DNA from: Bacteroidota bacterium
GTDB taxonomy: Bacteria; Bacteroidota; Bacteroidia; UBA8524
Length of the DNA: 64,000 bases
Direction of reading: 5' to 3'
Assembly (NCBI GenBank): GCA_016124735.1
Contig: WGMZ01000013.1
Coordinates: forward strand, 1-64,000
Shown here piece by piece: positions 9,635 to 47,659 of the stretch (positions are counted from its first letter, which is position 1; the number at the start of each line of letters is the position of its first letter). Below the pieces are notes generated by a model. It ran no database searches. It was not told the origin of the DNA and was given only the letters and a program-made list of their open reading frames with translations. The translations under genes were made by a program, and so were the position numbers.

Positions 9635-9750
9635 GTCTATAGATACGTATAGCGTTAATTTTTGGTTTTGAATCTTCGTCCTCCTCCGTTCATTCCCTAA
9701 GATATATGTCTGCTTGCCAGACTTACAATCCCTCTTCTTTCTTTGCATTT

Positions 9751-10119
9751 CTTTTTTTTAAAAAAAAGAAACAAAAAAAGCGCGCTTGCTTCCTCAATGA
9801 CCCGCTATGCCTTCCTTCGCTATTTTCTTCAAACTCGCTTCACTTCGTTCGCTCAAACAGGGAAGAAAATAGACGCTCCGTCAGGCAGCGGGTACCCTCC
9901 CGGCCAATTCGGGACGGAAGCTAGGCGCCTATTGCTTACGCCGGCTTAAGTTAACATCTCAATCTGTTGGATTCAGATAACTTCATGCGGGTGGGCTGGC
10001 CAAAATGCGGGCCGCGCGTTGGCGTGATGTTTTTTTTAGGGAGGCCAGACGCAATGGCCGACCGTTAAGAAAAAAACAGAGAGCAGGGAAGCTTATTTTG
10101 GCCTTGATTTTTTGGTTCA
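9751..10119 (+). repeat. Dispersed intergenic repeat, copy 1 (long form)
   Basis: Homologous in the same orientation to 47193-47465. Shared blocks include an A-rich lead, CTTGCTTCCTCA, GCTATGCCTTCC, TCGGGACGGAAG, CTATTGCT-ACGCC, GAGCTGGCCAAAATGCG-like, AGGGAGGCCAGA, GCAATGGCCGA, CAGAGAGC-GGGAAGCTTA and TTTGGCCTTGA. Copy 1 carries about 80 bp more after GCCTTCC. Short self-complementary pieces (GGCCA..TGGCC) suggest RNA structure. The 581-bp gap 9635-10215 holds nothing else I can name; open frames at 9706-9949 are products of the repeat. Confidence 0.8.
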
Positions 10120-10142
10120 TTTTGTATCAAGACAAAATGAAC
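10115..10142. other. Hairpin at the right end of repeat copy 1
   Basis: GTTCATTTTGT and ACAAAATGAAC, an 11-bp perfect inverted repeat, flank a short loop just after the conserved TTTTTTGG of the repeat. Copy 2 lacks this pairing, so the hairpin may be a separate element or a decayed end. Confidence 0.5.
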
Positions 10143-10215
10143 ATACAATAAAGAAGGAATAGGATCAAAGATTGGCACAATTACAACACGGCGAAGTGGC
10201 ATTCAATTGGAGATT

Positions 10216-11496
10216 TTAAAATCTTTTCAAATGAGACAGACCCAAACCTGCCAAAACAACCATCAATGGGAGTATCGCTGATTTATACCGCGCCGTTCCA
10301 ACCGGTCCTGTCAGAACCCAGAAATAACCGATGATCAGACAGAGAAGAATAACCAACATGGTTTGATTTGGTAAAGCTCTGAGCCCATTCAATGTAAGCA
10401 GGAGCAGGAGTAGCGAGCCCAGAAGATTTAAAAAAAAGAAGAATACAATCAGGGGCGATTGTGACCGTATCACTTCCCACATGCCCCGAAAATTCCCGCG
10501 GGCCAATTTGTACATCAATCCATCTTGTCCCTCATCCATCTTATAAAAATGAACATAATCGTGTCGGCCCGGATCCAATAACATGGCGAGCATTCCTTTT
10601 AGATGGACCTTTGCATACGCTCCTTTATTCGCGGCAATCAATTTTTTGCAGGTGTCCTGGATGAAGAAATTCCTCGCTTCGTAGCTGGATGCTGTATCGG
10701 CCATTGCATTAATCCCGGAAATCACGGAATCGGCATGTCGCGTCCCATATGCCGACTCCAGCATCAGGCGCGTATTGTAGTCTTTAAGATTAACCGTGCT
10801 CACGGAGGTATAATGCGCATAGCCAGTTTTCTTCTGGTTATAGGCGCTCCAAAGCAACACAACCAAAGGCAGAAGAAATACCGGCCAAATAACTTGCAGT
10901 CGCTTTCGCTGCATAGCGCGCACCGTGGCATAACCCAGGAGAGGCAGCCAGAAAAAGAGCATTACCGGTTTGATAAGTAATGCAGCGGCGAAACAGAGTG
11001 AGGCCCAAAGCCACTGCCGGTTTCCCGGCTTATCTATATCGCCCAGCAAAAACCAAAAACCACCAAACAATGCAAGCTGAAAGGGTATTTCAGAAAGAAT
11101 AGAATTGGCGTAGATGAGGGCATTACTCTGTAAAACCAATGTGCCTAAAATGAGCCAGGCTGCTGTCTGTTCTCTCACATTCTTTTTCAGCAATACGCGA
11201 AAAACCAGCCACCAGACAAAAATGGACATCACATTCTGCAGCATAAGAATTAGCCACTCCATAGAGCCCGTTAAGTAAAGCATGACGGCATAACCCGGAG
11301 TGCGTTTCGTGAAATAATCGGGTTTGATCGGCTCATTCATGTTCCAGGCATAAAAAGAACCGGATTCCCTCAGGTTTTCCGCCTGGTACAGGTAGTCATA
11401 GGAATCAGCAATTTTGGTTCCACCGATGATCAGCGCCATCAGATAGAACACCAGATGAAGTCCGATTAGTCCATATAGAAACCGGGTTTTGTTCAT
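10216..11496 (-). CDS. Polytopic membrane protein, GT-C glycosyltransferase-like
   Basis: 426 residues with about 8-10 hydrophobic helices. An early loop carries DSYDYLYQAENL with acidic residues, then RTPGYAVMLYL, which is the pattern seen in GT-C (PMT/ArnT-like, family 39) enzymes that use polyprenyl-phosphate sugars. A long hydrophilic stretch (about 235-330) is followed by more helices. The start overlaps the stop of the phosphatase gene (ATGA), so the two are translationally coupled. The glycosyltransferase call rests on topology and the N-terminal loop only. Confidence 0.6.
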   Translation of the reverse strand: MNKTRFLYGLIGLHLVFYLMALIIGGTKIADSYDYLYQAENLRESGSFYAWNMNEPIKPDYFTKRTPGYAVMLYLTGSMEWLILMLQNVMSIFVWWLVFRVLLKKNVREQTAAWLILGTLVLQSNALIYANSILSEIPFQLALFGGFWFLLGDIDKPGNRQWLWASLCFAAALLIKPVMLFFWLPLLGYATVRAMQRKRLQVIWPVFLLPLVVLLWSAYNQKKTGYAHYTSVSTVNLKDYNTRLMLESAYGTRHADSVISGINAMADTASSYEARNFFIQDTCKKLIAANKGAYAKVHLKGMLAMLLDPGRHDYVHFYKMDEGQDGLMYKLARGNFRGMWEVIRSQSPLIVFFFFLNLLGSLLLLLLTLNGLRALPNQTMLVILLCLIIGYFWVLTGPVGTARYKSAILPLMVVLAGLGLSHLKRF

Positions 11497-47094: not shown

Positions 47095-47192
47095 GGCCCA
47101 ATATTTCGCTAAAATATAATTCATTAGTCTCCGTCCATTTCCCACAAAACCTTTTAATTGAAGTATTAATTCATTTTCACTTATAATTATTT

Positions 47193-47465
47193 CCTTTTTA
47201 TTAAAAAAAGAAAGTAAAAAATCGCACTTGCTTCCTCATTGACCTGCTATGCCTTCCTCCCGATAAATTTCGGGACGGAAGCCAGGAGCCTATTGCTGAC
47301 GCCAGCATTATATAACATCTCCGTCTGTAAAATTAGAAAAGCTCCTTTTGGGTGAGCTGGCCAAAATGCGCATAACGTTTTTTAGGGAGGCCAGATGCAA
47401 TGGCCGAACATTAATAAAAAAACAGAGAGCGGGGAAGCTTAATTTGGCCTTGAATTTTTTGGTTC
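47193..47465 (+). repeat. Dispersed intergenic repeat, copy 2 (short form)
   Basis: Homologue of 9751-10119, in the same orientation and also downstream of a plus-strand or between genes. It keeps CTTGCTTCCTCA, GCTATGCCTTCC, TCGGGACGGAAG, CTATTGCTGACGCC, GAGCTGGCCAAAATGCG, AGGGAGGCCAGATGCAATGG and TTTGGCCTTGAATTTTTT. It lacks the 80-bp insert of copy 1. The rest of the 602-nt gap 47095-47696 holds no gene; its last 37 nt are the next promoter. Confidence 0.8.
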
Positions 47466-47659
47466 TCGTATGTTTGACTGCAATGCGTTTCTTTAGTGAA
47501 ACAGGGCAGTGAGAATGGGAGAAGCATTTTGGTTCAGGCCAAAAATATCATTCAATAAAGAAATAGGACTATACTCATCAATCCGATGTGTGATTGAAAC
47601 GGAGGCTCTAGATATAATTTTTAAACTCTTTTACCAGTTGAGAGAAACACGGAATAATA

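Follow-up and report, generated by a model that had tools for sequence, protein, structure and literature searches.

In this study, we show that the dispersed intergenic repeat found twice in the window (the whole stretch of 64,000 nucleotides of Bacteroidota DNA analysed here) is a real and mobile element, in kind an ordinary one, that represents a new IS1595-type MITE family. The assignment is made because the element has inverted ends and 8-bp target duplications and shares its genome with resident IS1595 elements whose ends match its own. It has probably been spread in trans by the IS1595-family transposases of the same genome. An earlier note had hesitated between a structured RNA and a non-autonomous mobile element, and on the second reading it was right, as the ends, the duplications, the resident elements and the intergenic position of the copies all agree. 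A named transposon family accounts for the dispersed repeat and for part of the contig breaks in the assembly, and it supplies ends that can be used in annotation.

The two copies in the window lie in the same orientation, as the earlier note had stated (47256-47465 matches the copy-1 query with a BLAST E value of 1.2e-43), and the conserved blocks that it named are present, namely GGCTGGCCAAAATGCG at 9995-10010, AGGGAGGCCAGA, GCAATGGCCGA, and TTTGGCCTTGA, together with a GGCCA(7 nt)TGGCC hairpin in both copies. However, its unit of about 270 bp was too short: when copies were aligned with their flanks, conservation ran past that unit to the ends listed in Table 1. The first condition under which it would have been refuted, a total of only two copies, fails outright, as a search of the 3.11-Mb genome (53 contigs) with positions 9700-10150 as the query located the repeat at about 40 places on many contigs and on both strands, of which about 20 are nearly complete and 79-93% identical. 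This count is approximate, since more partial copies lie close to or at the ends of contigs, where two halves may in some cases be parts of one element. Copy 2 of the window is among the more diverged members (78%). The "extra 80 bp" ascribed to copy 1 is a normal internal hairpin that nearly all copies carry and that has been deleted from copy 2.

Table 1. Features of the two MITE copies in the window.
Feature	Position	Strand	Basis
MITE copy 1, whole element, eroded ends	9677..10217	+	homology to full-length copies
Left subterminal hairpin TTTCTTTTTTTT/AAAAAAAAGAAA	9748..9771	+	sequence; in most copies
Internal hairpin ACCCGCT...AGCGGGT, exchangeable inner hairpin	9800..9893	+	copy comparison
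Conserved core blocks incl. GGCCA...TGGCC hairpin (10043-10059)	9995..10089	+	near-invariant across copies
Right subterminal hairpin CTTGAT-TTTTTG-GTTCATTTTG(T)-ATCAAG-(A)CAAAATGAAC	10103..10142	+	phylum-wide, compensatory stem changes
Left target duplication ATATAATT, copy 2	47114..47121	+	exact direct repeat
MITE copy 2, 490 bp, diverged, internal deletion	47122..47611	+	TIRs CATTAGTCTCCGTCCATTTCCCAC, GTGTGATTGAAACGGAGGCTCTAG
Right target duplication ATATAATT, copy 2	47612..47619	+	exact direct repeat

A full copy measures about 490-545 bp (about 600 bp in subfamily B, L036 and L037) and possesses imperfect 24-bp inverted ends (CATGnGTnTCCG...) flanked by 8-bp target duplications. Full elements start with CATGTGTATCCGTTTATTTCCCAC and finish with GTGGTATTGAAGCGGAGACTCATG, which, read inward, form imperfect inverted repeats. 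Direct 8-mers flank several copies, including AAAATCCT (L009), AAAATAAA (L013), TTTTTTAT (L017), TATTACTT (L021), TGAAATTT (L023), and ACAAAAGT (L027), as well as TTTATGAA in L032 if its left end is moved by two bases. Among the 18 copies with both ends, the flanking 8-mers are identical at 112 of 144 positions, against a mean of 53.7 and a maximum of 75 when right and left flanks were re-paired in 2000 shuffles, and exact duplications in strict register number six where 0.33 would be expected. All 16 copies tested are intergenic, none lying inside an ORF. At about 490-600 bp the elements are short and lack a transposase gene, and the window ORF list holds no ORF of at least 80 aa wholly inside either window copy.

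The ends of copy 1 are degenerate, with a left TIR CGTCCTCCTCCGTTCATTCCC at 9677 and a right TIR GTGGCATTCAATTGGAGATTTT at 10196-10217. Its right end was placed by hand and could be 10219; with the hand-placed end only, the flanks TGAATCTT and AAAATCTT match at 6 of 8 positions, and this duplication is therefore putative. For copy 2, no MITE-empty site was found in a relative, as a search of the same-genus genomes for the gene next to it gave no match. Four further loci (L026, L034, L035, and L046) have a good core without recognisable TIRs, with 9-13 mismatches in 24 positions at both ends; either their ends have been lost or the core can spread alone.

Sites that resemble the TIRs but lie beyond the known MITE copies led us to a 1004-bp insertion sequence in the same genome (G000:C12:22144-23147, L183:1645-2648), which is bounded by CATGAGTCTCCGTTTCCTTACCAC and CATGAGTCTCCGCTAGTTTACCAC and flanked by an exact 8-bp duplication, AAATCCAT. 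Its protein of about 304 aa is an IS1595-family transposase (PF12762, 60.9 bits; PF12760, 28.5 bits; NF033547, 152.6 against a cut-off of 75). The element interrupts a gene, as its flanks, joined over one copy of the duplication, give an unbroken frame of 766 codons in place of broken frames of at most 371 and 478 codons; the split gene looks like one for a LamG-like repeat protein. A second IS1595 element, with the ends CATGACTGTCCGTTTAATTCCCAC and CATGACTGTCCTTTAACTTACCAC, occurs at many contig edges and is taken to be multicopy because five near-identical 3' ends were found, and IS1595 remnants are also present in the genome. Contig breaks (C7, C8, C20, C24, and C53 at their starts, C14, C32, and C42 at their ends) fall in many cases inside a multicopy IS1595 element and in others inside the MITE, and these repeats explain part of the assembly fragmentation.

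The best pairs of MITE and IS ends are identical at 20, 21, and 23 of 24 positions, where the shuffled maximum is 16; the left end of subfamily B (L036, L037) is the one that matches the IS right end at 23 of 24. A target duplication of 8 bp is usual for the IS1595 family. The interior of the MITE shows no similarity to that of the 1004-bp IS, and the MITE is thus not a simple deletion derivative of the IS. We infer that the MITE is probably mobilised in trans: the IS1595-family transposases of the genome would recognise its CATGnGTnTCCG ends, and insertion into AT-rich intergenic DNA would leave the 8-bp duplications. Its interior does not derive from the IS and consists of hairpins in series; the one nearest the right end, the right subterminal hairpin, is part of a phylum-wide module, and a folded single-stranded DNA or RNA form may, as our guess, help the element to persist.

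Within the genome, parts of this interior are exchangeable. In L031 the stem of the left hairpin has been replaced in sequence with its self-complementarity kept. The inner hairpin exists in two versions, with variants such as TTTTCTTC...GAAGAAAA and CCCGCACGTGCGGG, and the right hairpin has a short loop in some copies and in others a loop with an additional palindrome, e.g., ATGCTGAGCGAAGTCGAAGCAT. RNAalifold predicted 57 pairs from 21 copies with a covariation term of only -0.3, and much of the double-sided change among the copies comes from exchange of the inner hairpin, or of the loop of the right hairpin, as a whole. At gathering scores, Rfam matched nothing in the window, and for the element in its own and related loci it gave no match at E values up to 1.

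Beyond this genome, the right hairpin stands out. In most relatives of the class, matches are confined to one or the other subterminal hairpin, and the right-hairpin pattern occurs in 12 of 158 genomes of the phylum (that of the window included), a second class among them, whereas a reversed-pattern control gave no match. We collected 27 distinct hairpins chosen only on CTTGA, TTT.G, and TCAAG with one mismatch allowed. Their flanking stems pair at 9.33 of 10 positions on average, against a mean of 7.82 and a maximum of 8.30 in 200 re-deals of the 3' arms; these hairpins are related, and the shuffles consequently overstate significance. The stems differ outright (GTTC/GAAC, GTTAC/GTAAC, GGTAC/GTACC, CTTC/GAAG), and pair 6-24, which joins the loop to the upstream segment, is of a standard type in each of the 27, with C-G in place of T-A in two. 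On these sequence comparisons, compensatory changes have kept the right hairpin in two classes of the phylum. Its 6-nt loop, ATCAAG, has a complement, CTTGAT, shortly upstream. An H-type pseudoknot was considered and rejected by reasoning, since hardly any nucleotides would be left to cross the stem once the whole loop had paired with that hexamer; the two pairings should therefore be alternatives rather than simultaneous. We found no literature on the right-hairpin sequence, and this module is the only part of the element that may be new.

Parts of the core also recur elsewhere. The motif CAGAGAGCGnnGAAGCnTATTT, which starts at 10077 in copy 1, is present in G004, a genome from another genus of the same family, and in three genomes from family f34, where more core blocks (AAATGCGGGC..., GGCGTGAATG) are recognisable by eye. 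CATG...TCCG ends were not recognised at the few related core loci read by eye. The TIR pattern gave one or two matches per genome, with 2-3 mismatches, in 59 relatives, where no second family was seen, and two exact TIR matches in GTDB contigs were discarded, as they have no element homology around them and apparently lie inside coding genes and arose by chance. Several neighbouring features were observed in passing. In one genome (L142, G341:C4:1-14000), four same-strand repeats carry the right hairpin and have a common sharp right border (...AAGATCCTGGG). A Flavo-1 RNA (RF01705, 64.1 bits, cut-off 42) lies at L096:2213-2288 in G171, about 650 nt downstream of a related core and within a stretch of about 1 kb that recurs in G037 (L063). 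A match to a group II catalytic intron at L095:2812-2900 on the minus strand (G077) scores 39.3 bits, just below the Rfam cut-off of 40.

We tentatively consider, while holding it to be rather doubtful, that the interior is a deeply conserved folded module, i.e., an undescribed selfish or regulatory RNA or ssDNA element captured by an IS1595 MITE, in the order of a AAATGCGGGC..GGCGTGA block, a variable long hairpin, a ACAGAGAGCG..GAAGC block, and the terminal hairpin. This reading rests on compensatory change in at least the terminal hairpin, on its dispersal without recognised IS1595 ends and on the cores without TIRs in the genome itself. The widely shared terminal hairpin offers a testable lead, as several Bacteroidota genomes have unannotated intergenic hairpins of such form. 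It is less probable still that the MITE is only a carrier and that its core from the left to the right hairpin, about 370 bp, constitutes a gene for a structured non-coding RNA or else a regulatory RNA. The sharp conservation of blocks in diverged copies, their recurrence in G004 and family f34, and the pairing of the right hairpin kept across the phylum speak for this reading, but covariation within the genome is negligible, no Rfam family matches, and copies readily swap or lose the inner hairpin. The structured RNA of the earlier note is thus unproven for the element as a whole but keeps some ground in the right hairpin, the one part in which compensatory change is seen and for which a lack of covariation, named in that note as refuting, does not hold.

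Two other routes of dispersal were weighed against transposition by IS1595 enzymes. In the first, the repeat would be REP-like and a Y1 (HUH) transposase of the RAYT/TnpA-REP type would recognise it through its hairpins. Subterminal hairpins and palindromes are indeed present, and the subclass 2.6 TnpA-REP genes of Bacteroidetes are described as having atypical flanking structures of which the genome carries copies in other places (PMC6006769). Y1 genes occur in the genome of the window and in 13 of the 15 relatives searched, and a truncated one precedes a partial MITE copy by about 165 bp (G000:C12:44555-44776, L048), which we take as chance neighbourhood. However, the combination of inverted ends and 8-bp duplications suggests a DDE enzyme, the one intact Y1 gene of the genome (C42) has no adjoining copy, and none of the 30 Y1 loci scanned in relatives, over about 1.5 kb on each side where contigs allow, has the right hairpin beside it. 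Such a partner was accordingly rejected, and we regard a REP-like origin as very unlikely. Even harder to credit is a recombination site of integron-like cassette arrays. Some relatives do carry several right hairpins on one strand a few kb apart, but the intervening genes look, by eye, like ordinary chromosomal genes with irregular spacing, which makes cassette arrays unlikely, and in the genome of the window the copies occur on numerous contigs and in either orientation. An IS1595-type MITE remains the preferred and a very probable reading.

The element can be compared with several known systems. It is like REP sequences with Y1 transposases in being a dispersed intergenic palindrome (PMC6006769), but differs from them in its anatomy of TIRs and 8-bp duplications, and no association with a Y1 gene was found. 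BrickBuilt and other MITEs of Porphyromonas gingivalis are likewise intergenic elements of Bacteroidota with predicted stem-loops and no internal transposase remnant; in contrast to the present MITE, BrickBuilt is built on direct 23-nt repeats and has other TIRs and duplications of 2-5 nt (PMC4596501). The resident IS1595-family elements (PF12762/PF12760, NF033547) have CATG...TCCG ends like those of the MITE, and the duplication of the resident copy is of the same length, whereas the MITE has no transposase and an unrelated interior. In Acinetobacter, MITEAba12 is a short element for which ends and duplication length in common with a co-resident IS indicated mobilisation in trans (PMC6382973). 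Although MITEAba12 is only 113 bp long, with duplications of 9 bp and a link to ISAba12, of another family (PMC6382973), the same logic, in which ends and duplication length are common to the MITE and a resident IS, applies to the element described here.
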